In this document: positions 1-13,220 of the stretch, piece by piece
How positions within the stretch are numbered: the first letter of the stretch is position 1
Layout of the letters: each line of letters opens with the position of its first letter
Assembly: GCA_902984215.1 (NCBI GenBank)
Contig: CADWAF010002587.1
Coordinates: forward strand, 1 to 13,220
DNA length: 13,220 nt
Origin: Willaertia magna
Taxonomy: Eukaryota; Heterolobosea; Eutetramitea; Acrasida; Naegleriidae
Reading direction: 5' to 3'
The notes under the pieces: generated by a model
Seen by the model: only the letters and a program-made list of their open reading frames with translations
Database searches by the model: none
Told to the model about the DNA's origin: nothing
Position numbers and translations under genes: made by a program

Positions 1-84
1 AACTATTTTTCAAAATAAAAAAGACATTATTACCGAAGAATTTATTACAATCTTTGATTTGTGAAATATTGACAAGAATTGTAC

Positions 85-102
85 AAATTGACTAGTCAAT
101 TT
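85..102. repeat. 18-bp perfect palindrome upstream of the small gene
   Basis: AAATTGACTAGTCAATTT is its own reverse complement. In copy 2 the core TTGACTAGTCAA (4431-4442) is kept but the outer three bases on each side no longer pair, so only 12 bp remain. It could be a dimeric DNA-binding site. No factor is assigned. Confidence 0.6.
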
Positions 103-358
103 ACATTACAATTAACTAGAATATACTTTGCGATTCTTTTGCATAACTAGTTTTGTATCTTTCTTATGAATTTGTGTTTGTAGATTGAGAGTTAGAAACT
201 GTGAAACAGTTCATTTAAAACAATCAGCAGTTCATAACCAGCAATGCTGTCCAGTATTGTAATCCACGCACAGTTAAAATTTTTTTTGTAATTCCATATT
301 CATTCCTTTCAACATTTATTTAGAAGTCCACTTACTACATTCTGAGAATTGGTGAATG

Positions 359-374
359 AAACCGTGAACGGTTT
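359..374. repeat. Short hairpin AAACCGT-GA-ACGGTTT, lost in copy 2
   Basis: Seven-base arms with a two-base loop, followed by more T. In copy 2 (about 4693-4707) the left arm is missing, apparently by an 8-bp deletion between two TGAA direct repeats. The other hairpin (197-211) is intact in copy 2 (4541-4555). The loss in one copy argues against an essential function. Confidence 0.5.
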
Positions 375-443
375 TTAATTAAAAGAGGCTTGCTGTAATG
401 TTGACACTGTTAATTAACAAAAAAAATTAACATTAATAATACA

Positions 444-887
444 ATGAAATCTAAAAAACAACAAGATTTTGCATTCGTCAATATTTTCTTCGATAAGGAA
501 GGAGTGAAACATACAGTCTCCACTAGGCCAATAACTTTTGTTTATAATGAAATGGGGTTTGTGAAATCAAACCAATCAGTTCTGCATTTCCAAGCTAAAC
601 CACAGACCAGTTGTAATAAGAACAGTCCTTTAAGTATTGGTAGTTCAACAACAAAGGCTTCCCCAAGCATGCAGGAGAAAGAAGGACTTGTGAAAGTTAA
701 TAAAGTAAATAAAGGCAAGAGAAGAAATTCATTAGTTTTAGATAAAATTGAAAAACAAACCAAAACTAAGGATATTAGGTCTTCTTCAATACTGAAAGCT
801 GTTGTTTCTGAGACAATAATAACGCCTAAAGAAGAACCTAAAAGAACCTTTAGAACATCTATATCTATTAAAGAATTATTGAATTAG
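444..887 (+). CDS. Small basic Ser/Lys-rich protein of unknown function, copy 1 (147 aa)
   Basis: I do not recognise this family. The protein has a short N-terminal part with alternating hydrophobic and charged residues (FAFVNIFFDKEGVKHTVSTR, residues 9-28). A Ser/Lys/Thr-rich, probably disordered middle follows, with a basic RRNS patch near 93-96 that resembles a basophilic kinase site. The tail ends SISIKELLN. There is no signal peptide, membrane segment or known catalytic motif. An in-frame stop at 411-413 precedes the ATG at 444, and the start is conserved in copy 2, which supports it. GC is visibly higher than in the flanks. The homologue at 4773-5222 differs by scattered substitutions and one 6-nt in-frame indel (SPSMQEKE versus SPSIKPQEKE), with the frame kept throughout. 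That suggests selection on the protein. It is transcribed opposite to the other genes of the unit and ends 59 bases from the RCC1 gene's 3' end (convergent). Confidence 0.8.
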   Translation: MKSKKQQDFAFVNIFFDKEGVKHTVSTRPITFVYNEMGFVKSNQSVLHFQAKPQTSCNKNSPLSIGSSTTKASPSMQEKEGLVKVNKVNKGKRRNSLVLDKIEKQTKTKDIRSSSILKAVVSETIITPKEEPKRTFRTSISIKELLN

Positions 888-945
888 CAAAGTAGATTTT
901 TCCTTACATTTCATAACTTAAGCCACAAAGTTAGTGAAAAAATAT

Positions 946-2392
946 TTAAAAATTGAATTGGACATCCGATAATTCATCACTAATATCAATTTTGCACATT
1001 TCTTGTAATTTCATAAAAAAGTACTTTAAATCCTTTGAATCATTGTCATTTACATCTTTATCAAAAGCAATAAAGTAATGCCATCCTCCACAAACAACTT
1101 CATTTGGAAAATATTCATTACTAATAATATTATATTGTTCCCTTAATGATTTTAATTCCATTTTATAAACATTATTGACATTTCCATTAATTATCATTCT
1201 TTTCTCTTTAAACTTTTCAACAACTTCTCCAACAAAATAAATTTCATCCTCTTCATTCCAAAAATAAGATCCTCTTGAAGAACAACCAATCTTTTTGATT
1301 TTACCTAAATTAGGAATATATTGATCTAATAAACAATAACTGAAATCACAACTATTATTTTGTAGTACAGTAAATGATCCATTTAAATCACAATTTGCTT
1401 GTTTCAACCCATTATATCCAACACCAATTACTTTACCATTCTCTAATAAAAAGATATGATGCCAATAGCCGGCTTTCACTGAAATTATTGGTGATTTTTC
1501 ATTCTCCAATAAAGGACTATCAATCTTAACAAAATTTGAACTGTTACTGTGATAATTAACACCAAATCCACCTAAAGTATTCACACCCATCGAGTAGGCG
1601 ATGTTGTTGTTGTTGTATTGATATGGTGGTACAAGACAAAATCCACATCCTCCACTTGAACCACAAAAGATTGGAACATTATGTATGTCAAATGACAGTT
1701 GTTGTTGCATTGGATTGAATGGTGACAGTGTTATACATTTAATTGTGGCATTTTTGTAAATTTCATAATTTTCTAAAATTACTAAAAAATCGTTGCTAAT
1801 TGGTCCTGAAATGATTTGTTTAATTTTTTTACCTTTAAAATATATTTTTAGAATTTTACGTGTAGTTAAATCTATTTTAATTAAATGTAATTTATTTTCA
1901 TCCAATAAAATTAAAAATTTGTTATTGCAATAAATAAGTGCATTACTATTAGTCAACCAACCAATCTTTACAAAGGTTTCATCCAAATTAATAAAATAAC
2001 TTTCATTTAAATAATATTTTTCATTAGTTATTACATTTTTAAATTCTAATTTCTTATATTTTTGTTGTAAATCTAAATTACAATTTTTATTCATTTTTTT
2101 AAATTCTTCTTTGCAAAATTTTCGAACTAATTTTACAATATTTTTTGATAAATTTAATAAATCATTTGTGGGAGTTCTAAATAGAACTATGGTTGAAGAG
2201 TGTGTATAAATTTTTGTGTATTTAAAGTTTAAACATTCTAATGGAGTGAAAACAAAAACAGTTTCTCTTGGAACTGGATTAGAGTTTTCATATTGAAAAG
2301 GTAAACCTAATAAATGTAAAAATTTAAAAGTAATTATTGGAATACTTACCTGATGGTTGTGTGCTGGCAGCATAGAGGAATAGTTTTGACAT
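946..2392 (-). CDS. RCC1-repeat protein, two exons, likely lacking a BTB domain (467 aa)
   Basis: Spliced model: exon 1 2392-2350, intron 2349-2307, exon 2 2306-946. The unspliced frame would start inside the intron. Splicing gives an N-terminus MSKLFLYAASTQPSGLPFQY, which resembles the first blade strand of RCC1 proteins (K-L-F-x-x-G-x-N). RCC1 proteins fold into seven-bladed propellers and act as exchange factors or interaction scaffolds. The clearest repeats are around residues 290-315 (AGYWHHIFLLENGKVIGVGY) and 418-430 (VVCGGWHYFIAFDKD), matching the family pattern G-x-x-H-x-x-x-L-x-x-x-G-x-V-x-x-x-G. The middle (about 90-220) is K/I/N-rich and poorly matched. The last residues, DELSDVQFNF, look like the opening strand of a BTB domain, then a TAA follows, so this may be an RCC1-BTB protein cut at its BTB start. 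A 12-codon upstream ORF (2435-2397) precedes the start. The gene lies 71 bases downstream of the kinase gene on the same strand. Confidence 0.75.
2307..2349 (-). other. 43-nt intron in the RCC1-like gene
   Basis: Reverse-strand donor GTAAGT directly after CCATCAG, acceptor TTTATTAG before GTTTACC. The intron interrupts codon 15 after its first base. Removing it restores one 468-codon frame including the stop, and replaces an unlikely N-terminus with an RCC1-like one. Confidence 0.75.
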
Positions 2393-2463
2393 TTTTTTAG
2401 AAAGTTGTTGCAATTTTTGTAAATATAATTGACATTTTTTTTACAACATTTACAAAAAGTGAT

Positions 2464-3740
2464 TTAAGGAAACACAAATGAAATATCTCTGTACATTATA
2501 TTTGTTTTTAAATTATTAAAATATTCCTTCTTCTTTTTAAAAATCTTTTTAATTTCCTTTCTTTGTCTTTTTAATAATAATTTAAATTTCTTTACATGAC
2601 AAATAGCAACATCAAAATCAAACGTTAAGCTTTTATCCAAAACATCATTAAAACCATTGTAATCTTTTTCAAAAAAATCATCATAAAATTCATAAGAATT
2701 AAATAAAGAAAACAAAGGATGTTTCATTGCTTCTTCAATTGAAATCCTTTTACTTGGTTCAAAATAAATTAACTTTGCAATTAAATCACATGAATTTTCA
2801 TAGAAATCATCCCACTCTAAAGTTGGTTGTTCTTTTAGGATCTTTTCTTTCAAAGTAGTTTTAACATGTTGTAAGTAAAGTTGGTAATCTTCATTGGTAT
2901 CGTTCCAAACTTTATTATTGACATTTCCTGAAGCTACTGAAATTAATTCTTTGGCATATTTTGCCATTTCATTTAATTTATCTTCTGTCACGTATCCAGT
3001 AATATTAATTAAATTTTTGAGTGAAGTTACAGTACTAGTGTGTATCATTGAATTTTTATAAATTAAATATAATAAGATAATTCCAACTGAAAATATATCT
3101 AATTCTTTTGTAATTGTTCTATTTCCCATTTTCTAAAGATGGTTCTTACAAAAATATTGTAAAAAACATAACTTACCCATTCTGGAGCGATTGTAAAAGT
3201 ACCACCCAAATTGGAATCAAAATCATCAAACTCATATTCACTATTTATTTCACAAATTGATAAAAATTTTGAATAATTAATTTTAATTTCACAATTTTCA
3301 GTAATACCAATATCATTAAATCTAATTGGGAAAAAAGAAATATTAAATTTAGTATGAAAATAATTACAAATTTTTAATAATTGATAAATAATAAATTGTT
3401 TATGAATATTTTCTAAAATACCTGATAAACAATAATAAACATAGGTAGGTACATATTCATAGATTAAATATATTTTTTGATTTTCATAATCGCATTCAAT
3501 ATCTCTTAAATTTAATAAATTTCTATAAATGTGACTTAAATAAATTGAGACAAAAAACATGTTTTTTTCTTGTTGAAATCCAAACTTGTCATTGTCCTTG
3601 TTTTTAAAATCCATTACACTTATCAATACTTTCTTTTCATTTTCCTTTCCAACAACGTGTGCTTCTATAAATAAATCCACTGCTGATCTATTTTTCAAGA
3701 TGGAATACTTTTGTGAAATATTGCTTGGCAATTTATCCAT
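2464..3740 (-). CDS. CMGC-like pseudokinase, copy 1, two exons (410 aa)
   Basis: Exon 1 3740-3177 (188 codons), a 44-nt intron 3176-3133, exon 2 3132-2464. The junction joins FTIAPEW to KMGNRTITKELDIFSVGI, rebuilding the kinase APE motif followed by the alpha-F segment with its structural Asp. The C-lobe ends with PSKRISIEEAMKHPLF, the conserved Arg helix typical of MAPK/CMGC kinases. The catalytic apparatus is gone. There is no glycine loop, the VAIK strand reads VLISVMDF with no Lys, the HRDLKPxN loop reads roughly SFFPIRFND with no catalytic Asp, and DFG is replaced by NYSKF. It should therefore bind or scaffold rather than phosphorylate. The tail after about residue 340 is strongly Lys-rich and helical-looking. 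A second copy at 6817-5538 keeps the same splice sites and only in-frame indels, so the degenerate form is being maintained. Start ATG sits in AAAATGG context. Confidence 0.82.
3133..3176 (-). other. 44-nt intron in pseudokinase copy 1
   Basis: Donor GTAAGT at 3176-3171, acceptor TTTAG ending at 3133, phase 0. The intron contains in-frame codons, so the unspliced exon 1 frame runs on for 25 non-homologous residues. Copy 2 has a 44-nt intron at the same site with diverged internal bases. Confidence 0.82.
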
Positions 3741-3862
3741 TTTTTTTTGAAGGGTTTACAAAAAAGGGTGGATAATTGTTTTTAAGCGTGTTACAAAAAG
3801 AATTGGTGGTTTACAATAATAATGTGTAAAGTTCTTTTTGTTTAAAATTGCAGGATAATTTA
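3741..3862 (-). promoter_or_regulatory. Region upstream of pseudokinase copy 1
   Basis: 122 bases between the leucine-rich fragment's stop and the kinase ATG. It is nearly identical to the same stretch in copy 2, unlike other non-coding parts of the repeat. On the minus strand it has TTTTTGTAA motifs ahead of an A-run and the ATG; a similar TTTTTGTAAA plus A-run and ATG occurs before the RCC1 gene. It may be a promoter or an intercistronic spacer. Confidence 0.4.
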
Positions 3863-4342
3863 TTATTGGATAAAACATTTTTTTTGTTGTTCAAAGTTAT
3901 TAGTATTATTATTATTTGATAAACGTGTATAATCTGATCTATTTGAATCATTATTTTTATCTTTCTGTTCATTATTATTTTTTGATTTGTCGTCTGTCAT
4001 CATTTCATCAGTAATCATCGCATTTGAAATATTAGAATAAAATGGTAATTCAATATTTAAATAAATTAAATTAGAAATATCTAATAATTCTACTTTATAT
4101 TTCATTTTCTTATCGTTGTTATTATATATTAATTCAAAATATAATAAATTTTTTGCTTTTAATTTAAAATTAAAGTTAAGGACAGTACTACTGTTCATTT
4201 TTAATTTAAAATAAGTTAAATAATTAAATTCAATAAGATTATCAATTATTAAATCTAAAGTTTTACAATCTATATTTACTCTTTCTATAATTGGAAAATT
4301 TTTTAAGTAGATAGAACAATCTTTACAATAAATAACTATTTT
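3863..4342 (-). pseudogene. C-terminal fragment of a possible leucine-rich-repeat (F-box-like) protein
   Basis: An open frame of 159 residues runs from just after a TGA (4345-4343) to TAA at 3865-3863; the first ATG is only at 4198 (111 residues). The N-terminal part reads as irregular leucine-rich repeats, for example NFPIIERVNIDCKTLDLIID and FNYLTYFKLKMNSSTVLNFN, as in the LRR tails of F-box proteins. The C-terminal part is Asp/Lys/Asn-rich low complexity. The frame opens almost exactly where the second repeat copy begins (4334), so the gene's 5' part was probably cut off by the duplication. The last codons (KKCFIQ) survive in copy 2 before that copy diverges at about 6969. A spliced 5' exon outside the obvious frame cannot be excluded. 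Confidence 0.5.
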
Positions 4343-4772
4343 TCAAAATAAAAAAGATAATAATATTATTATCGAAGAATTTATTACAATCTTTGATTTG
4401 TGAAATATTGACAGAAAGGAATTGTACAATTTGACTAGTCAATTTACATGATAATTAACTAGAATATACTTTGCGATTCTTTTGCAAACTAGTTTTGTAT
4501 CTTACTTGATGTATTTGTGTTTATAGATTGTGAAGTTAGAAACTGTGAAACAGTTCATTTAAAACTGGGTAGTCCATAACCAGTAATGCTGGCCAGTATT
4601 GTAATCTACGTACAGTTAAATTTTTTTTTGTAATTCTATATTCATTCTTTTCATTATATATTTAGAAGTCCACTTACTACATTCTGAGAATTGTGAATGA
4701 ACGGTTTTTAGTTAAAAGTAGCTGCGCTTGCAGTAATAACATAATTAACTAAAAAAAAATAACAATAATACA
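4343..4772 (+). promoter_or_regulatory. Gene-free upstream region of the small gene, copy 2
   Basis: Counterpart of 1-443. The hairpin AACTGT-GAA-ACAGTT is intact at 4541-4555. The palindrome is reduced to TTGACTAGTCAA (4431-4442). The third hairpin has lost an arm. The ACTAG-rich block and the A-rich leader before the ATG are conserved. I see no gene here. Confidence 0.45.
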
Positions 4773-5222
4773 ATGAAATCTCAAAAACAACAAGGTTTTG
4801 CATTCGTCAATGTTTTCTTCGATAAGGAAGGAGTGAAACATACAGTCTCCACTAGGCCAATAACTTTTGTTTATAATGAAATGGAGTTTGTTAAATCGAA
4901 CCAATCTGTTCTGCATTTCCAAGCTAAACCACAGGCTAGTTGTAATAAAAACAGTCCTTTAAGTATAGGTAGTTCAACAACAAAGGCTTCCCCAAGCATT
5001 AAGCCGCAGGAGAAAGAAGGACTTATGAAAGTTAATAAAGCAAATAAAGGCAAGAGAAGAAATTCATTAGTTTTAGATAAAATTGAAAAACAAACCAAAA
5101 CTAAGGATATTAGGTCTTCTTCAATACTGAAAGCTGTTGTTTCTGGGACAGTAATAACGCCTAAAGAAGAAACAAAAAGAACCTTTAGAACATCTATATC
5201 TATCAAAGAATTATTGAATTAG
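4773..5222 (+). CDS. Small basic Ser/Lys-rich protein of unknown function, copy 2 (149 aa)
   Basis: Paralogue of the protein at 444-887: same start context, same stop (TAG) and full-length collinearity. Differences are scattered and mild (for example KKQQDF/QKQQGF, NIFF/NVFF, MGF/MEF, VSETII/VSGTVI), plus two extra codons in the SPSIKPQEKE stretch. No function is recognised. It keeps the RRNS basic patch and the ISIKELLN tail. An intact frame in both copies while the neighbouring RCC1 copy has decayed suggests both small genes may still be used. Confidence 0.8.
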   Translation: MKSQKQQGFAFVNVFFDKEGVKHTVSTRPITFVYNEMEFVKSNQSVLHFQAKPQASCNKNSPLSIGSSTTKASPSIKPQEKEGLMKVNKANKGKRRNSLVLDKIEKQTKTKDIRSSSILKAVVSGTVITPKEETKRTFRTSISIKELLN

Positions 5223-5293
5223 CAAAGTAGATTTTTCCTTACATTTTATAACTTAACAATTAAGAATTTGTATTTTTATTCTTTTAGCCACAA

Positions 5294-5540
5294 TATTACA
5301 TTTTTAAATTCTAATTTTTTACAATTTTGTTGTAAATTTAAATTACAATTTTTATTAATTTTTTTACAATATTTTTTGATAAATTTAATAAATCATTTGT
5401 GGGAGTTCTAAATAGAACTATGGCTGAAGAGTGTGTATAAATTTTTGTGTATTTAAAGTTTAAACATTCTAATGGAGTGAAAACAAAAACTTTTTCTCTT
5501 GGAACTGGATTGGAGTTTTCATATTGAAAAGTTAAGCCTA
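5294..5540 (-). pseudogene. Relic of the RCC1-like gene (copy 2), start of exon 2 only
   Basis: Matches copy 1 about 2030-2310, which is the 5' part of RCC1 exon 2. Reading on the minus strand gives TFQYENSNPVPREKVFVFTP and onward for about 65 residues, then an internal loss of about 40 bases shifts into a stop. Exon 1, the intron and everything after about residue 105 are missing. The fragment has no start codon and cannot make a propeller. Confidence 0.85.
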
Positions 5541-6817
5541 AAGAAACACAACTGAAATATCTCTGTACATTATATTTGTTTTTAAATTATTAAAATATTC
5601 CTTCTTCTTTTTAAAAATCTTTTTAATTTCCTTTCTTTGTCTTTTTAATAATTTAAATTTCTTTACATGACAAAGAGCAACGTCAAAATCAAATGTTAAA
5701 CTTTTATCCAAAACACCATTAAAACCATTGTAATCCTTTTCAAAAAAATCATCATACAATTCATAAGAATTAAATAAAGAAAATAAAGGATGTTTCATTG
5801 CTTCTTCAATCGAAATCCTTTTACTTGGTTCAAAATAAATTAACTTTGCAATTAAATCACATGAATTTTCATAGAAATCATCCCACTCTAAAGTTGGTTG
5901 TTCTTTTAGGATCATTTCTCTTAAAGTGGTTTTAACATGTTGTAAGTAAAGTTGGTAATCTTCATTGGTATCGTTCCAAACTTTAATTGTATTCTTGTCA
6001 TTTTCTGAAGCTACTAAGATTAATTCTTTTGCATATTTTGCCATTTCAATTAATTTATCATCTGTCACATATCCAGTAATATTAATTAATTTTTTGACTG
6101 AAGTCACAGTACCAGTGTGAATCATTGCTTTTTTATGAATTAAATATAATAAGATAATTCCAATAGAAAATATATCTGATTCTTTTGTAATTTTTAAATT
6201 TCCCATTTTCTATCGTTAAACGTTACAAGAAATATTGTAAAAAAATAACTTACCCATTCTGGAGCAGTTGTAAAAGTATTACCCAAATTGGAATCAAAAT
6301 CATTATACTCACATTGACTATTTATTTCACAAATTGACAAAAATTTTGAATAATTAATTTTAATTTCACAATTTTCTGTAATACCAATATCATTAAATCT
6401 GATTGGGAAAAAAGAAATATTAAATTTAGTATGAAAATAATTACAAATTTTTAATAATTGATAAATGATAAATTGTTTATGAATATTTTCTAAAATACCT
6501 GATAAACAATAATAAACATTGGTAGGTACATATTCATAAATTAAATATATTTTTTGATTTTCATAATCACATTCAATATCTTTTAAATTTAATAAATTTC
6601 TATAAATGTGACTTAAATAAATTGAGACAAAAAACATATTTTTTTCTTGTTGAAATCCAAACTTGTCATTGTCCTTGTTTTTAAAATCCATTACACTTAT
6701 CAATACTTTCTTTTCATTTTCCTTTCCAACAACGTGTGCTTCTATAAATAAATCCACTGCTGATCTATTTTTCAAGATGGAATACTTTTGTGAAATATTG
6801 CTTGGCAATTTATCCAT
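5538..6817 (-). CDS. CMGC-like pseudokinase, copy 2, two exons (411 aa)
   Basis: Exon 1 6817-6254, a 44-nt intron 6253-6210, exon 2 6209-5538. Splicing joins FTTAPEW to KMGNLKITKESDIFSIGI, as in copy 1. The same catalytic losses are present (no VAIK Lys, SFFPIRFND in place of HRD, NYSKF in place of DFG), as are the retained APE, alpha-F Asp and KRISIEEAMKHP. The first 75 residues are identical to copy 1; exon 2 is more diverged, with a two-codon insertion (ENDKNTIKVW versus GNVNNKVW) and one lost Leu codon, both in frame. The stop TAG (5540-5538) lies at the deletion junction, so the C-terminus was re-made by the rearrangement (VVFL instead of FVFP) with almost no change in length. Confidence 0.82.
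6210..6253 (-). other. 44-nt intron in pseudokinase copy 2
   Basis: Donor GTAAGT at 6253-6248, acceptor AACGATAG ending at 6210, phase 0. It has the same position and length as in copy 1, but the acceptor side is diverged while the exon borders are conserved, as expected for a working intron. Confidence 0.82.
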
Positions 6818-6969
6818 TTTTTTTGAAGGGTTTACAAAAAAGGGCGGATAATTGTTTTTAAGCGTGTTACAAAAAGAATAGGTGGTTTACAATAATAATG
6901 TGTAAAGTTCTTTTTGTTTAAAATTGCAGGATAATTTATTATTGGATAAAACATTTTTTTGTTGTTCAA

Positions 6970-7029
6970 CAGAAGCTATTGGTGAGTATTTTAGAAGAGG
7001 TTTTTCTCGTCACCAATTAAATTCTTCTG
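6970..7029. repeat. Imperfect inverted repeat at the end of the recombinase relic
   Basis: The left arm is CAGAAG (6970-6975) then ATTGGTGAG (6978-6986). The right arm is CTCGTCACCAAT (7006-7017, one extra base) then CTTCTG (7024-7029). The loop is about 19 bases. It starts exactly where the segmental duplication stops and overlaps the last codons and stop of the recombinase frame. It could be an element terminus or a 3' RNA hairpin. Confidence 0.6.
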
Positions 7030-7269
7030 ACATACCTATTTTTTGCAACACTACTCCAAGAACCTACAAACTTAACCATTTCTAAAGGTTCTCCACTTTT
7101 AACTAATTGAGAGGCTCCATTAATTCTGAGTGAATGTCTAGAGACAACAGCGTTAGTGTTGTTAATGATTTTGATGACAAAAGAAATAAATTCAGTACTT
7201 AAATAATTATTACTTCTAAAATTAGAAAAAAAAATCTAAAAGTTGTTTGTCATCATTTAATAAAATGCT
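7017..7269 (-). pseudogene. C-terminal fragment of a tyrosine recombinase (Crypton/DIRS-like), frameshifted
   Basis: Minus-strand translation contains VSRHSLRINGASQLVKSGEP, then LEMVKFVGSWSSVAKNRYVR and a stop at 7019-7017. This is the classic C-terminal part of a tyrosine recombinase: the H-x-x-R motif, the Trp at the H/W position (GSW) and the Tyr nucleophile (NRY), at normal spacing. Such enzymes cut and rejoin DNA through a 3'-phosphotyrosine bond and mobilise Cryptons, DIRS/PAT/Ngaro retroelements and some plasmids or viruses. Just upstream, DDKQLLDF continues in another frame across a run of nine T (7234-7226 on the minus strand). One base fewer would keep the frame, so a single-base slip broke it. 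A TAA lies before 7269, and nothing recognisable of the N-terminal core-binding domain or first catalytic Arg follows. Non-functional as it stands. Confidence 0.82.
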
Positions 7270-7309
7270 TTAGTATTAAAATATTAGCTTTTAAATGGAA
7301 ACTATATAA

Positions 7310-7396
7310 AGTAATACTATATATGAAAGAGAGGGAAAAAATGAAGTGGAAAAAGTTGAGAAAGAAATAATAAAAAAAGAAAAGGTAAAAGAAATT
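7310..7396 (+). pseudogene. Charged, Glu/Lys-rich frame fragment
   Basis: 29 codons without a stop, containing EREGKNEVEKVEKEIIKKEK. A high Glu content is not expected from random AT-rich DNA and suggests the helical, charged part of a former protein. The frame continues after a TAA at 7397 with further TAA interruptions to about 7500. Family unknown. Confidence 0.35.
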
Positions 7397-7529
7397 TAAA
7401 TAAATTACAAAGTAATCAAATAAAAAAATAAATACTTATTGACTATCTAAAAATAATATCTAAATGAAATACATTAAAAAGAGAACATGTTAAAATATTT
7501 AATGAATTTTTTTTAAATAAATTTTATAA

Positions 7530-7885
7530 TTTAAACCTCAATTAAAAAATAACAACTATGATAAATATTACATTTTAGAAAAAGGTCAAATTAAAAGTAT
7601 TGATATATTTAAAATTTTATTAAAAATTTATAAAATTGTAATACTAAGAAGAAATTTAATTTTAATAGATTTTTAATAATATTAATTAAATTTAATAAAA
7701 AAAGAATAATTATTATAAATAATTTTAAATATAAACACATACATAAAAAGAATAATTATAGTAAAATAAATAAAAATTTGATGACATAATTAAATTCCAG
7801 AGATGATAAATTATTATTATTAAATTATTTAAGAGATATTCAGGTTATTGATTGTAAAAATTATGTTTATTATAAGGAAATGATT
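7530..7885 (+). pseudogene. Broken protein-like frame, two overlapping reading frames
   Basis: First part, 7530-7673: 48 stop-free codons including NNYDKYYILEKGQIKSIDIF, ending in TAA TAA at 7674. Second part, frame +1 nt off, about 7691-7885: 65 codons with a single TAA (7787), including LNSRDDKLLLLNYLRDIQVI and DCKNYVYYKEMI. Random DNA of this composition would carry a stop about every ten codons, and D, R, E, Q, C and V residues are over-represented here. I read it as one former gene broken by a frameshift and stops. Product not recognised. Confidence 0.45.
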
Positions 7886-8013
7886 TAAAAAAAAAAGTTT
7901 TATAGAATTTAATAATAAAATTAATTTAAAGAAATTTAAATAATTTAAAAAATTATAATAAAATTCAAAAATCTAATAATAATAAACTAAATAGTTTAAT
8001 ATAGATTAATATA

Positions 8014-8142
8014 TTAAATGAAGATAAAATATTTAATATTTTAATATTACTTAAAAATTTAAATTATTTTAAAGAAAATTAAATAAATAATATAATAATA
8101 TTAAATATTATTTCATATCAATCTTTATTTTCATTATATAAA
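8014..8142 (+). pseudogene. Protein-like frame fragment
   Basis: A frame starting LNEDKIFNILILLKNLNYFK, one TAA, then INNIIILNIISYQSLFSLYK, closing with stops near 8144. About 43 codons hold only one stop. It probably belongs to the same broken gene as the frames on either side, separated by small indels. Confidence 0.35.
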
Positions 8143-8735
8143 ATGTAATAATATTATTATTAAATGTAATAATAAATAAATTAATTAGACTTATAAAAAT
8201 TAATAATTTAATATATCTAAATATTGATCAATCAATTACTATTATAATCTAACAACAATAAATCAAAATAATAAATAAAAAAGTTATTAAAATAATAATT
8301 AAATTATAAATATCAATAACAATATTAAAAATTTTTATTTTATTTGTAATAGATATTATTATATTATTAATTAATGATCAATCAATAATTTTATTAATAA
8401 ATCAAATTAGAATTAAATAAATAATTTTATTAGTAAATCAATTAAATAATTTAAATACATTAATAAAAAAAAAAACAATTTATAGCATGATTAAATATAA
8501 AATTATAAATTTAAAAACAACAAAAAATTATAGAGATTCTAATTTAAGAAGAGATTTTGATTATAAAAATAAATATTTATTCTATAATTTTAAAGAAAGT
8601 TTATAATATATTTTATATTATAATAATATAAAAGATTTTATTTTATTATAAAATATTAATTTTTATAGTTTATTAATGATTATATTTTTATTTTTAATAA
8701 TATTCAATTATAAAAATAAAGTATTAAATAAATAA
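8142..8735 (+). pseudogene. Long frame broken only by TAA, with a C-terminal membrane segment
   Basis: One reading frame of about 197 codons carries six internal stops, all TAA, at points where the surrounding sequence stays protein-like. It includes IKYKIINLKTTKNYRDSNLR followed by RDFDYKNKYLFYNFKES, and ends with a strongly hydrophobic stretch FYSLLMIIFLFLIIF then NYKNKVLNK and TAA, which looks like a tail anchor. A 12-codon repeat (IILLINQ and IILLVNQ, 8386-8441) lies in the middle. Two of the TAA codons flank two CAA codons (8250-8261). No family recognised. Confidence 0.5.
8386..8441 (+). repeat. 36-nt tandem repeat, 12 codons per unit
   Basis: TAATTTTATTA(A/G)TAAATCAA occurs at 8386-8405 and 8422-8441, spaced exactly 36 nt. 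A related unit with GATCAATCAA precedes it (about 8350-8385), and another GATCAATCAA lies near 8226. The spacing is a multiple of three, which is more natural in coding than in non-coding DNA. Confidence 0.5.
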
Positions 8736-8844
8736 TGTTTAAATTTTTTTATTTACATACAATTATATATAACTTTTTGTAAAAAAATAATTTAAAAAAT
8801 ATATTTTACAATTATTATATTAATTATAATTTCTAAAATATTGA

Positions 8845-8865
8845 TACTATTATATTATTAGTATA
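8845..8865. promoter_or_regulatory. Hairpin and TATAGTAT-like stretch between two broken frames
   Basis: ATACTA (8845-8850) and TAGTAT (8860-8865) can pair across a nine-base loop. Immediately after comes TATATAGTATATAAAT, about 45 bases before the ATG of the next frame (8912). It sits in the gap between two plus-strand frames, where a terminator or promoter would be expected. Function is inferred from position only. Confidence 0.3.
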
Positions 8866-8911
8866 TAGTATATAAATATTATTTTTATTTAGTTGTATTA
8901 TTTTTTTAAAA

Positions 8912-9720
8912 ATGAAAATATATTGATTTGTATTGATTTTTATGATAGAATTTTTGATGATTTATTTGTTATTAATTTTTTTTTTAATTAAAACATTATA
9001 TTTTCATAATAAAATTGACATTATTAAAAAATTTTATCAAAAATAAAATATTTAAATCTTATAATTATATTTTGAATGTAATGTTAGTATTTATATATAT
9101 ATTATATTGAAATTAATAATCAAATTTAAAGATTTAAATAAAATATTATGAATTGTTTATAATTTAAAAGATATATATAATAAAAAAAAAGAAATTTAAA
9201 ATAAATTATTTAATAAATAATAATAGTTAGATTATTATTTAATATATAAATAATGAAATAATAAGAATAAAGATGAAATAAATAATTTTTTAAAAATTAT
9301 AAATTTATTTAAAAAAATTATAAATCAGTATATTTATAATAAAAATTATTTAAAAATTTTATTATTAACTTTGTTAAAACTTTATAATTATTTAATAAAA
9401 ATTAATTTACTTTTTAATATGTATAAAGATTAATAGATTGATTGTATTAAAAAATAATTAATATTATATAATCTATTAATATATAGTAAACAAAAATATA
9501 AAAAATTACTAATAGATTATTTTAAAACAATATATAGAAAATAGATATATTTAAGTGAATATTATAATAATAAATTTAATAATAATTTATAAATTTTTTT
9601 AAATCTTTATATTAATAGAATTTTGTAATTTTAATATTTAAAAATAAAAAATAGATATACTAGTTATGAAGTTAATTAATTATTTAAGACATAATAATAT
9701 TAATAAAATTTTTAGTAAAA
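8912..9720 (+). pseudogene. Broken frame beginning with a hydrophobic N-terminal segment
   Basis: From the ATG at 8912 the frame reads MKIY, a TGA, then FVLIFMIEFLMIYLLLIFFL and IKTLYFHNKIDIIKKFYQK: 39 stop-free codons with a clear membrane or signal-anchor segment right at the start. The same frame continues with scattered TAA, a few TAG and TGA to about 9720, including a stop-free run of about 50 codons (around INNFLKIINLFKKIINQYIY). A start codon followed at once by a membrane segment looks like a real gene 5' end. Family not recognised. Confidence 0.42.
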
Positions 9721-9737
9721 GATTGAAGATTATAAAT

Positions 9738-10340
9738 TTTAAAGTTTTTGTTAATATTAATGATTATAAAATTTATTTAAATAAAATAACTATTAAATAA
9801 CTATTGTACAATTAATTTATAATTTAAATAAAAATAAATTTATAACATCAATATTGTTTATTATTTAATTGATTATAAAAGAATAAAATTGATAAAATTT
9901 AATTTAAATAATTTAAAAATTTTAAGATATAACATATTGATTATAGATAAAAAAATAAAAAAAAATATTTATTTTTTAATATTCTTATTTTAATAAATTA
10001 TATTTATAATAATATAATAAAAATATCTTTTGATCACAATAAATATAAATTAATATTTAAATACAATAATAAAAAAATAGTATAAACAGTTAGAAATCTA
10101 ATAAAAAATAATATTTATTTTATTAAAACCCTAAAATAGAAATTAAAATTTTAAAAATGTTAGAAAATAAAAATAATATTAAAATATCTTAAGTATTTAT
10201 TTGAATTATTATAATATATAAAATCTCTTTATATATTAAATATATTTAATAAATTTATTAAAAAGAAATAAGAAAATAAATTAATATATAATTATAAATA
10301 TCATAAATATTTATTAAAAAATTAAAAGAATAATAAAAAT
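9738..10340 (+). pseudogene. Broken protein-like frame
   Basis: One frame (first codon at 9738) stays protein-like for about 200 codons with roughly fourteen TAA, two TAG and one TGA. The best stop-free part is 9951-10082 (44 codons), including NNIIKISFDHNKYKLIFKYN. The stop count is close to what random AT-rich DNA would give, so most of this frame may be chance; the 44-codon core is the better-supported part. Confidence 0.28.
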
Positions 10341-10413
10341 AATAATTTAATTTATTGTTTCTTCAGAGATATTTTTTTTTATATTTATATATTTGATTAT
10401 TAAATAAAATTAT

Positions 10414-10680
10414 TTAATTTTTTATTTTATTTTTTATATCTTTATTAATCTTTAAATTAATTAAATTTTTCATAAAATTATTTAAAATTTCATGAATTCT
10501 CACTAATATAATAATTAACCATAAATGATCAAATATATTTTTATTATTTTCAATTATTGTCTTATCTTTTAATTTATTTTTACTATTTTAAATAAACTTT
10601 CTTTTATAATCTAAATCACTTAGAACATAATTAAATTTAACAAGTTTTATTACTTTTTTTAATATTTTCATTAAAATCAT
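10414..10680 (-). pseudogene. Minus-strand frame of 88 codons with one internal TAA
   Basis: From ATG at 10680 the frame reads MILMKILKKVIKLVKFNYVL then SDLDYKRKFI, one TAA (10590-10588), then 57 stop-free codons including NIFDHLWLIIILVRIHEILN, ending in TAA at 10416-10414. W, H, V, R and D residues, rare in random AT-rich DNA, make this the most convincing former gene on the minus strand. About nine stops would be expected by chance. Product unknown. Confidence 0.5.
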
Positions 10681-11006
10681 TGTTTAAAATGTTTAATAAT
10701 AATAATTTGTTTATTTTTTTATCTTTTATTGTAAATAAATTTTTTTTAAAAGAATATTTTATTTTATTGATCATTATATTTTTTTTTAAAAAAATTGAAA
10801 TATAAATTTTTGAAAAAATATTTTTATTAAAATGATTAAAAATAATTAAACTTAATATTTTTTATTAATTATTAATAACAAAATTAAGTTATATAATTTT
10901 ATTTGTTTTAATAATATTCTATTTTTTAATGGCTTTATATAATTTATTAAAATTATATAAATTAATAATTATTAACTAATAAATTAATTTAAAATTCATA
11001 AAATTA

Positions 11007-11546
11007 TTTTTTATCAATTTTTTTATTTTTATATCTATTGCTATTATTTATAAATTGTTTAAAATTAATTTTATTAAGAATTTTCAATTATTTACATAGT
11101 TAAAATAAAATATTTTTTTTATCACAAACACTAAATAACAAAACAGCAATTCTATATATATTAATATTTAAATTATATTAATTCTTTAAATATTCTAAAC
11201 AAGCTAATTTTTTTCTATTTTTAAAAATTGTATAAACTTTATTTAACAAATTAATAATTATTCTTGTTTTTTAATATATTAATATATTTTTGTTTTATTT
11301 TTTAATAATTTTTATATCAATTATAAATTTCAATAAATTGAATTCAGTTTTAGTTTGATAGGGAGTAATTATGTATTATTATTTGAAATATTTTAAAGTT
11401 TTTTTAAAATTATCATAATATTTATCTCTTTTCAATTTAAAACTATTTTCAGTCATACTTTTAATTATTTTAAAAACATTCTTTTTTTTAGTAATTAATA
11501 TATTATTATTTAAAAATAAATCAAAAATAATCTTTTTACTAACCAT
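11007..11546 (-). pseudogene. Minus-strand frame of 180 codons interrupted only by TAA
   Basis: From ATG at 11546 there are 55 stop-free codons (MVSKKIIFDLFLNNNILITK, and later KSMTENSFKLKRDKYYDNFK). The same frame then continues to 11007 with seven TAA and no TAG or TGA. The later parts remain protein-like: YIITPYQTKTEFNLLKFI, NRKKLACLEYLKN and YRIAVLLFSVCDKKNILF. G is concentrated at first codon positions (GTT, GAT, GAA, GCT), as in coding DNA. No family recognised. Confidence 0.52.
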
Positions 11547-11602
11547 ACTACTTTTAACAAATAAAAATAATAAAAAATTAAATTAAAAAATATAATGTTT
11601 AC

Positions 11603-11860
11603 TTGTTATTATTATTTTTAAAAAAATTCTTTCTTAATTATATTAAATTGATTAATTAAATTTTAAGAGATTATAATTTTTAATATTTTTTTTTTAAAAT
11701 TAATTAATTAATTATTAACTTAAGATAATGTAATATTAATTATTTTTTTATTACTTTTCTTATTTAACAATAGTAAAATAAAAATAATAAAATTAATACT
11801 TTAAATAAAAGTAAATATTAATAAAAATAATATTTTTTCTTTTTTAATAATATCTTCAAA
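11603..11860 (-). pseudogene. Minus-strand broken frame upstream of the 11546 frame
   Basis: Reads FEDIIKKEKILFLLIFTFI, a TAA, then 26 codons (SINFIIFILLLLNKKSNKKI and onward), more TAA, and ends near a run of TAA codons next to a CAA (11620-11603). A related frame one step off just upstream (FEEKLSKKIILKEFNKKIY, about 11945-11888) probably belongs to the same former gene. Family unknown. Confidence 0.35.
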
Positions 11861-12119
11861 TAAAAATAAAGAAAAATTAATTATATCAATAAATTTTTTT
11901 ATTAAATTCTTTTAAAATTATTTTTTTACTTAATTTTTCTTCAAATAATAATGAAATCTAATTATTTATATAATAAATAATTCTAAAACATTAAAAATAT
12001 AAACTTTAAAAAAGTTAGTTAATTTTATAGATTTATATTTAAAAAACTAAAATAATTAAAATTTTTTTTATCAATAATTATTTCTTTATCATAGCAATCT
12101 CTAATTTATAAATTTGAAA

Positions 12120-12352
12120 TCATTTTTTTTAAATTAAATTACTTTAATATGTTTATATATTTTAAAATGTAAAATTTATAATAAAAAGATTCTAAAAAAG
12201 GAATTTTAAAATTTTTCTTTAATTTTTTTACAATTTATATTAGTAAATATATATTTATAAAATTGATTATATTTATAATTTTTTTATTAGATCTTTTTAA
12301 AAAATTGCAATAAACAATTTAATAAATTTAATTTTCTTAAAAATACTACTAA
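12120..12352 (-). pseudogene. Minus-strand protein-like fragment
   Basis: Reads LVVFLRKLNLLNCLLQFFKK, two TAA, then a 24-codon stop-free part including YKYNQFYKYIFTNINCKKIK, with further TAA to about 12120. It is weakly supported because the composition is mostly K/N/I/F/Y/L. Confidence 0.28.
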
Positions 12353-12638
12353 TTTTTACAATTTATAAAATTTAAATTTTTTTTAGTATTATTTATTAAA
12401 TTGTTCAAAGAAAATTTAAATTATAATCAATTAACTTACTTAAATATTTATAATAATGATATTAATAATACTATTTTATCACAATTTAACTACTTTACAT
12501 TATAATAATAACATTTATAAAAATCATTTAGTTAATATTTTAAAAAGTTTAACCATTATAAATAATAATTATATATTTTATATAAAATTTAAGATATGTA
12601 ATAAATTTTAAAAAAATTATTATATTACTTTATAATAA

Positions 12639-12764
12639 ACAAAAAAAAGTAAAATATCTTTTAATATAAATGAGATTCAATGTGTTAATTTAGATAAATA
12701 GAATGTATATTTTTTTATAAATAGAGAAAAAATAGTAAAAAACAGTTATTTATTTAAATTATAT
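12639..12764 (+). pseudogene. Plus-strand protein-like fragment, 42 codons with one TAG
   Basis: Reads KKSKISFNINEIQCVNLDK, a TAG (12699-12701), then NVYFFINREKIVKNSYLFKL before a TAA. One stop in 42 codons, and E, Q, C, V, D and R residues, suggest former coding sequence. The local switch back to an A-rich plus strand agrees with its orientation. Confidence 0.35.
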
Positions 12765-12934
12765 TAAATTAATATTAAACTATATAATATTTAAAGTATT
12801 GTTTATGTTTGGTTTTAAAGTTGAGATTTAAATAATATTAAATAATAATTTTTTAAATTTATATATAATTTAACAGTTTTATAGTTTTTTTTTTAAAAAA
12901 TAAATAAAGATTTTTTATAAAATTTTGTAAAATC

Positions 12935-12978
12935 AGTATAAATTATATTATTAAATAGTATAAGTTATATTATTTAAT
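12935..12978. repeat. 22-bp tandem repeat, two units
   Basis: AGTATAAATTATATTATTAAAT (12935-12956) is followed directly by AGTATAAGTTATATTATTTAAT (12957-12978), two mismatches. Confidence 0.65.
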
Positions 12979-13041
12979 AAAATAATATTTTTATTTGAAA
13001 TATTCTTTTAAAAAAATTTAAAATGAATTTTTTTTAAAAAA

Positions 13042-13059
13042 TAGTATAAATTTATACTA
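13042..13059. repeat. 18-bp perfect palindrome sharing the AGTATAA motif
   Basis: TAGTATAAATTTATACTA equals its reverse complement. It carries on both strands the AGTATAAA word that opens each unit of the nearby 22-bp repeat. In DNA this AT-rich short palindromes are common, but the shared motif is notable. Confidence 0.5.
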
Positions 13060-13220
13060 ATTTTATTATTATTATAAAAATTTTTTTACTTAAATAAAAT
13101 ATCTTTAATATTTTTTAATCTTTTATTACTTATTTTTGTTAATAAAATACTTGTAATTATTGTTAATTTATTTATTAATTTATTTATTTAAGTTTTAAAA
13201 TATAATTTCTTTAATTGTAA

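Follow-up and report, generated by a model that had tools for sequence, protein, structure and literature searches.

The window analysed here is a 13,220-nucleotide stretch of Willaertia magna whose right part, positions 7251-13220, is an island of 9% G+C (GC) with protein-like frames interrupted mostly by TAA. The question raised by this locus is whether such frames are genes decayed towards AT or genes of an element in which UAA is read as glutamine. The island is genuine, and decayed coding sequence lies within it. Its A+T content is 91% against 75% to its left, and the GC profile drops at about 7251, from about 20-34% to mostly 7-11%, at the junction of the terminus of a mobile element, called here the gene-X element, with the relic of a DIRS retrotransposon. 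The copies of these two repeat families carry C:G-to-T:A changes that are copy-specific, affect both strands and come almost without transversions, and this decay pattern is no pointer to a new genetic code. Searches of the organism's own genome were made in a W. magna assembly of 19.24 Mb in 894 contigs, designated by C-numbers, the window being C483. The published genome of W. magna C2c maky has 36.5 Mb, 4,505 scaffolds and 24.8% GC (PMC6892926), thus the assembly searched probably covers roughly one half of the genome of this species.

The gene-X element, its broken copy and the DIRS relic

A DNA search with the island gave matches at positions 7286-7358 (93% identity to C735 and 85% to C415) and 7358-7555 (81% to both). 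A conversion-aware aligner, in which a source C may read T and a source G may read A, extended this homology to 7251-7555 and uncovered a second block at 12590-12868, with 246 bits to C735 and 234 bits to C415 and reversed controls of at most 30 bits. On the forward strand the copy comprises the left terminus and leader of the element (7251-7357), a decayed 5' coding part of gene X (7358-7555) and a decayed 3' coding part (12590-12868). These alignments show the two blocks to be a disrupted gene of an element that is mobile, present in multiple copies and better preserved at other loci. In C735 about 170 bases separate the gene-X blocks. In the window 5,034 bases lie between them, an insert (7556-12589) of about 8% GC with three-base periodicity; this insert may be a second, more eroded mobile element.

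The better-preserved elements of C487, C231 and C269 have 3.3-3.5 kb in common at 94-95% identity, and the homology among them ends at the place matching window 7251. At one end their flanks are without mutual similarity, the opposite end being beyond the sequence compared; the unrelated flanks at that end of the shared 3.3-3.5 kb indicate that the gene-X family is mobile. C231 bears a 266-codon open frame. No Pfam family was above cut-off in this frame and three neighbouring open reading frames (ORFs), and no reverse transcriptase was identified in the four gene-X element ORFs scanned. C735 and C415 contain gene-X members within a longer, older multi-kb duplication that is strongly asymmetric: three of its blocks show 382 GC-to-AT transitions from C735 to C415, 73 in reverse and 174 transversions in total. 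A further copy (C371) lies at a contig end, next to an importin-alpha-like gene (labelled by eye). Unrelated proteins of or near the element (C231 2680-5879; C735) present common short motifs such as SSRDNDDTGS or SSRVDDRGSDPKK, seen by eye, as if one leader had been copied among genes.

On the aligned gene-X codons the window has seven stops, which replace three Gln, three Trp and one Lys. The corresponding codons of C735 are CAA (three), TGG, AAA, TGA and TAG (one each); C231 has TGG at both sites where C735 itself has a stop, and a Pro codon at one of the three CAA sites. Conversion at codon positions 1, 2 and 3 reached 29/54 (54%), 23/39 (59%) and 16/22 (73%), a rise seen in small counts. 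Since Trp and Lys codons have turned into stops and the coding positions show little protection, gene X in the window cannot be a functional gene with UAA as Gln, and this candidate was rejected. The alternative of the original prediction, genes decayed by changes of the CAA-to-TAA type, stands for the gene-X blocks through alignment to the better-preserved copies, and is likely for the insert.

The island abuts a relic of the putative tyrosine-recombinase 3' end of a DIRS-type retrotransposon (6979-7250, reverse strand), 80% identical to C42, 79% to C489 and 75% to C226, with all three matches ending at window 7249-7250. In C42 Pfam recognises a reverse transcriptase (RVT_1, E 4e-19); a second, overlapping frame ends in a recombinase-like C terminus, for which tyrosine recombinase is a label given by eye, without a Pfam hit at E 0.01. 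The arrangement of C42, with the window relic matching its 3' end, resembles that of DIRS retrotransposons; the relic differs from them in being only about 272 bases long and abutting an unrelated element. A recombinase relic adjoining the island had been predicted; it is a DIRS-type 3' end, and the island belongs to a different mobile element.

Spectrum of changes in the repeat copies

Polarised against the sister C735 and the outgroup C231, the window gene-X lineage had 53 of 94 C/G sites converted to T/A (C>T 24/34, G>A 29/60) and none with a transversion; its 320 A/T sites had 14 changes (4 transitions and 10 transversions). The sister branch leading to C735 had 2 conversions and 26 other changes. 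When C415 was the outgroup the window lineage had 59/109 sites converted, no C/G transversions and 13/394 A/T changes. A symmetric aligner over three window gene-X blocks gave 79/148 C/G sites converted, no transversions and 21/424 A/T sites changed, and a neutral aligner gave 22/45 for 7358-7555 and 44/68 for 12590-12868, again without C/G transversions.

Copy-specific conversion is strongest in the window and in C371, where 36/45 C/G sites were converted, with 2 transversions and 9/171 A/T changes. Fifty C/G sites are common to these two copies: 16 were converted in both, 6 in the window alone, 20 in C371 alone and 8 in neither. The two members within the older duplication are less affected, with 40/145 conversions, 6 C/G transversions and 24/476 A/T changes in C415, and 5/106 conversions and 2 C/G transversions in C735. 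The young elements (C269, C231 and C487, 3.2 kb) have 178 of 2253 C/G sites converted and 2 C/G transversions, with 46 transitions and 3 transversions at 6949 A/T sites. Among them C269 contributes 88/781 conversions and both C/G transversions (A/T: 7 transitions, 1 transversion), and C487 53/744 conversions and no C/G transversion (A/T: 18 transitions, 2 transversions).

The DIRS family presents the same spectrum. C42 and C489 together have 44/1370 C/G sites converted without any transversion, and 20 transitions but no transversions at 2940 A/T sites; separately, C42 has 16/679 conversions and 11 A/T transitions, and C489 28/691 and 9. Two copies on C679 have 18/168 (C679a) and 21/172 (C679b) sites converted, 0 and 1 C/G transversions, and 6 and 3 A/T transitions. 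The relic in the window is mildly affected, with 21/84 C/G sites converted, 2 C/G transversions and 11/141 A/T changes.

Conversions occur in all sequence contexts, on both strands and along the full copy length (variance to mean 0.56 to 1.76). By context, the window has 38/61 at CpA, 20/30 at CpC, 4/6 at CpG and 26/60 at CpT. The young gene-X elements have 8.3% at CpA, 6.4% at CpC, 14.5% at CpG, about twice the rest, and 6.8% at CpT; the DIRS copies have 4.4%, 4.4%, 6.8% and 5.3%, respectively.

A host block formed by a small ORF and a kinase-like gene is tandemly duplicated in the left part of the window (1-900 with 4331-5230, and 2150-4330 with 5380-7000) and serves as an internal control. 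Identity between the copies is 94.7% across 873 aligned bases and 95.8% across 1590. The unpolarised comparison of 1-900 and 2150-4330 with 4331-7000 gave 66 transitions and 46 transversions, and C>T plus G>A (33) equalled T>C plus A>G (33), thus without AT bias. In this single case, which may be older or younger than the process, the block shows no hypermutation.

Processes that may account for the decay

A fairly probable account is that nested mobile DNA in the W. magna nucleus has been eroded by selective C:G-to-T:A mutation through all-context methylation of transposons. A multi-gene mobile element, the gene-X element, would have landed in the DIRS relic at 7250/7251, and gene X would afterwards have been split by the 5-kb insert, with a dispersed repeat following. 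Cytosines would have been methylated in every context by a DNMT1-type enzyme during transposon silencing, and the resulting 5-methylcytosines (5mC) would then have been deaminated, passively or with enzymatic help. A DNMT1-type protein was identified on C319 (PDB match to DNMT1, E 5.8e-43), and a DNMT2-type protein is encoded on C456. Matches to the TET/JBP family at C226 14862-15140 and C754 5881-6069 are weak and below cut-off.

The close relative Naegleria gruberi has two DNMT1 enzymes, and all four CX contexts are methylated there at similar levels and disproportionately in repeats, as described in section 7 of PMC12344493. The two organisms are alike in the DNMT1-type enzyme, in the targeting of repeats and in the lack of context preference, and unlike in that methylation was measured in N. 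gruberi (PMC12344493) and mutation in W. magna. A mutational scar is not discussed in section 7 of that paper, whose discussion refers to 5mC as generally mutagenic. In Naegleria 5mC is restricted to transposons (PMC12695648). Changes on both strands, in all contexts and spread along the copy fit decay driven by 5mC, the contexts being compared with those of N. gruberi and not of W. magna. All-context conversion of both strands, the methylation of N. gruberi and the DNMT1-type gene together favour methylation-driven deamination of silenced transposons.

Several observations weigh against this explanation. Across eukaryotes 5mC is reported not to be a substantial shaper of base composition (PMC12695648). 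The DNMT1-type frame on C319 is broken by stops, which are either introns or damage. With transversions at 0.05% per site, a conversion level of about 8% at C/G sites looks high for passive deamination. CpT conversion in the window is lower than in the other contexts. By a crude shuffle, changes on the same strand cluster in the 5' block of the window (0.001) and in C371 (0.008) but not in the 3' block (0.25). Two copies are less clean: C231, with 37/728 C/G sites converted, 21 A/T transitions and no transversions of either kind, and the DIRS copy C226, the least clean row, with 18/144 converted and 32 transitions and 4 transversions at 454 A/T sites; part of the A/T transitions of both may be parallel conversion in other copies. 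Finally, row pairs of the dispersed repeat at the right end of the window have 1543 transitions and 1540 transversions, mostly A/T, to which misalignment contributes.

Fungal repeat-induced point mutation (RIP) produces C:G-to-T:A changes in repeats and leaves AT-rich islands. It targets any long duplication, host genes included, lays down same-strand mutation patches and requires both a premeiotic phase and a methyltransferase of the RID/Masc1 type; classical Neurospora RIP prefers CpA. An active process as in Ascomycota, where duplicates are recognised by homology and their cytosines mutated in one process, is a minor contender for W. magna. The gene-X and DIRS copies share with it the C:G-to-T:A changes in repeats nearly without transversions, the AT-rich islands and the sharp edge near 7250/7251, and the crude runs test agrees with it in two of three stretches. 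However, the CpA preference is absent in the window, the gene-X elements and DIRS, and a position-aware runs test found same-strand patches beyond chance in none of 8 lineages (lowest fraction 0.0625; whole window 0.23; C371 not among them). The duplicated host block, one unpolarised case, lacks the AT bias that RIP would leave. W. magna is a heterolobosean with a DNMT1-type enzyme and no demonstrated RID/Masc1.

Plain neutral drift of dead DNA to an AT-rich equilibrium, without any special process, is improbable overall and is contradicted for gene X and DIRS. It is in agreement with an AT-rich genome of 24.8% GC (PMC6892926), with the little sign of selection in the window gene-X copy and with the old dispersed repeat, where transversions are as numerous as transitions. 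Drift would be expected to produce C/G transversions, of which there are 0/94 in the window lineage and 2/2253 in the young copies, in contrast to the duplicated host block with its 46 transversions to 66 transitions.

Editing of one DNA strand of a retroelement by an APOBEC-like deaminase is less probable still. C-to-T changes do occur in a retrotransposon family, DIRS, but C>T and G>A are found within the same copies with no dominant 3' neighbour base, strand-pure motif-bound clusters were not seen in the 8 lineages tested, and the four gene-X element ORFs scanned gave no reverse transcriptase. The weakest explanation, that UAA (and UAG) is read as glutamine by the genes of an element, was suggested by stop-poor frames with TAA only and is hardly credible given the Trp and Lys codons among the aligned stops, the conversion at all three codon positions, the lack of a convincing homologue of the insert frames under that code (Pfam, PHROGs, PDB and own genome) and the six ORFs of the left flank, which terminate in TAA or TAG.

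To our knowledge, repeat-directed C-to-T decay has so far been known mainly as a fungal genome defence. A title search of the open-access literature, with subscription papers and preprints outside its scope, gave no report of transposon C-to-T decay in Willaertia or Naegleria. In W. magna, which is only distantly related to fungi, nearly all differences between young transposon copies are transitions, and most of these are polarised from C:G to T:A. Only tentatively, Heterolobosea might possess a transposon-destroying hypermutation in which recognition is by chromatin or methylation and not by duplication, cytosines of any context are affected and old elements end as islands of 10% GC or less; it would be independent of fungal RIP and possibly involve DNMT1 and TET-like enzymes. 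Methylation-driven decay would tie the base composition of heterolobosean genomes to their all-context methylation in a way open to testing, and could help explain why the GC content of W. magna (24.8%) is about 10 points below the 33-37% given for Naegleria (PMC12482156). TAA-rich frames in such genomes should not be read as alternative codes.

The insert, the dispersed repeat and the flanking host genes

The frames that raised the question of the code lie mostly in the insert. On the forward strand, the 198 codons of frame 8142-8735 include 7 stops, six internal and one terminal, all of them TAA; on the reverse strand, frame 11546-11007 has 7 stops in 180 codons, every one TAA. Frames 10680-10414 (2 TAA in 89 codons, one terminal) and 8912-9040 (a single TGA in 43 codons) are also stop-poor, as predicted, whereas the 118 codons of frame 7530-7885 contain 12 stops, three of them TGA, close to what chance would give. 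Against dinucleotide shuffles, the best 600-base frame, with 7 stops, was matched in 2 of 100; at window sizes of 300, 400 and 900 bases the counts were 17, 12 and 21 of 100, which is unexceptional. By themselves the stop statistics are therefore modest, with one of four window sizes exceptional. At the base frequencies of the island about 83% of stops are expected to be TAA, so that six of six or seven of seven arises about one time in three and "all TAA" is unremarkable. Three-base periodicity is clearer: over 7570-13220 the mean chi2 is 8.9 against 5.85 in shuffles, none of 200 being as high, and over 7570-12589 it persists with tandem arrays masked (1/100 shuffles). What remains of the stop-poor, protein-like island first described is thus the AT island itself, several of its frames and the periodicity.

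The insert contains no CpG, and its best match among 59 loci had 31.1 bits, with reversed controls at 30.9. Profile searches with its frames read with TAA as Gln found no convincing homologue, the best E being 0.06 across Pfam, PHROGs and PDB. Frame 8142-8735 read in this way had none in Pfam, PHROGs or PDB, and its own genome gave solely itself. Frame 11546-11007, the one frame sent to a large protein search, had 0 of 473 candidates at E 1 under the same code; its best PHROG match had E 0.064 and its best PDB match E 0.48. Weak own-genome matches of this frame to C719, C618 and C464 (E 0.0015 to 0.06) were rejected after conversion-aware DNA alignment, with 30.8 bits at 11436-11472 against 29.4 reversed for C719, and 25.3 and 23.8 bits, nothing clear, for C618 and C464. 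A likeness of frame 8912-9040 to baculovirus Ac81 (Pfam E 0.39) was likewise discarded; an own-genome search for it was empty but uninformative, its controls being equally silent. A phage DNA search with 10000-11600 gave no match. The idea of an inserted virus or plasmid found no hallmark in the frames scanned, no search aimed at plasmid records or, beyond one uninformative family search, at hallmarks in the genome having been made. A purine/pyrimidine BLAST gave no information, as its scoring permitted everything to align.

The right end of the window (12867-13220, forward strand) carries the first part of a dispersed AT-rich repeat, cut short by the end of the contig. This repeat has matches on more than 30 other contigs, at 69-91% identity among the 40 candidates scored out of 253. 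Of 9 loci compared, 5 place its left edge at 12867-12869; C371 places it at 12866. In an alignment of 11 rows (82% identical), the columns with at least one C comprise 594 cells, of which 333 are T and 121 are A or G; the columns of A and T only show variation in 92 of 2535 cells. The nearly equal transitions and transversions indicate that this old repeat is without a clean C:G-to-T:A spectrum. At loci L064 and L063 GC falls from about 0.3 to less than 0.1 near the repeat edge. Near-palindromes around AGTATAAATTTATACT, seen by eye at 12930-13060 of the window and in copies L060-L068, are possibly a terminal or subterminal transposon repeat.

Other AT islands (L002, L003, L005, L007 and L008) have about 1-10% GC and sharp edges, some of them inside long contigs, and are perhaps the end state of the same decay process. 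Three-base periodicity is significant in L007, borderline in L002 and absent in L003, L005 and L008. The initial 2 kb of the window island has matches of 66-69% to islands on C431, C503, C18, C443 and C312, but each of these matches recurs on the opposite strand and they are therefore taken as composition.

Rfam and tRNA scans across the window gave no matches. An RCC1-like protein with RCC1 repeats is encoded at 946-2373 on the reverse strand and matches W. magna ABK040_014030 with 100% identity across 95% of its length; its three further database matches are paralogues, all from W. magna.

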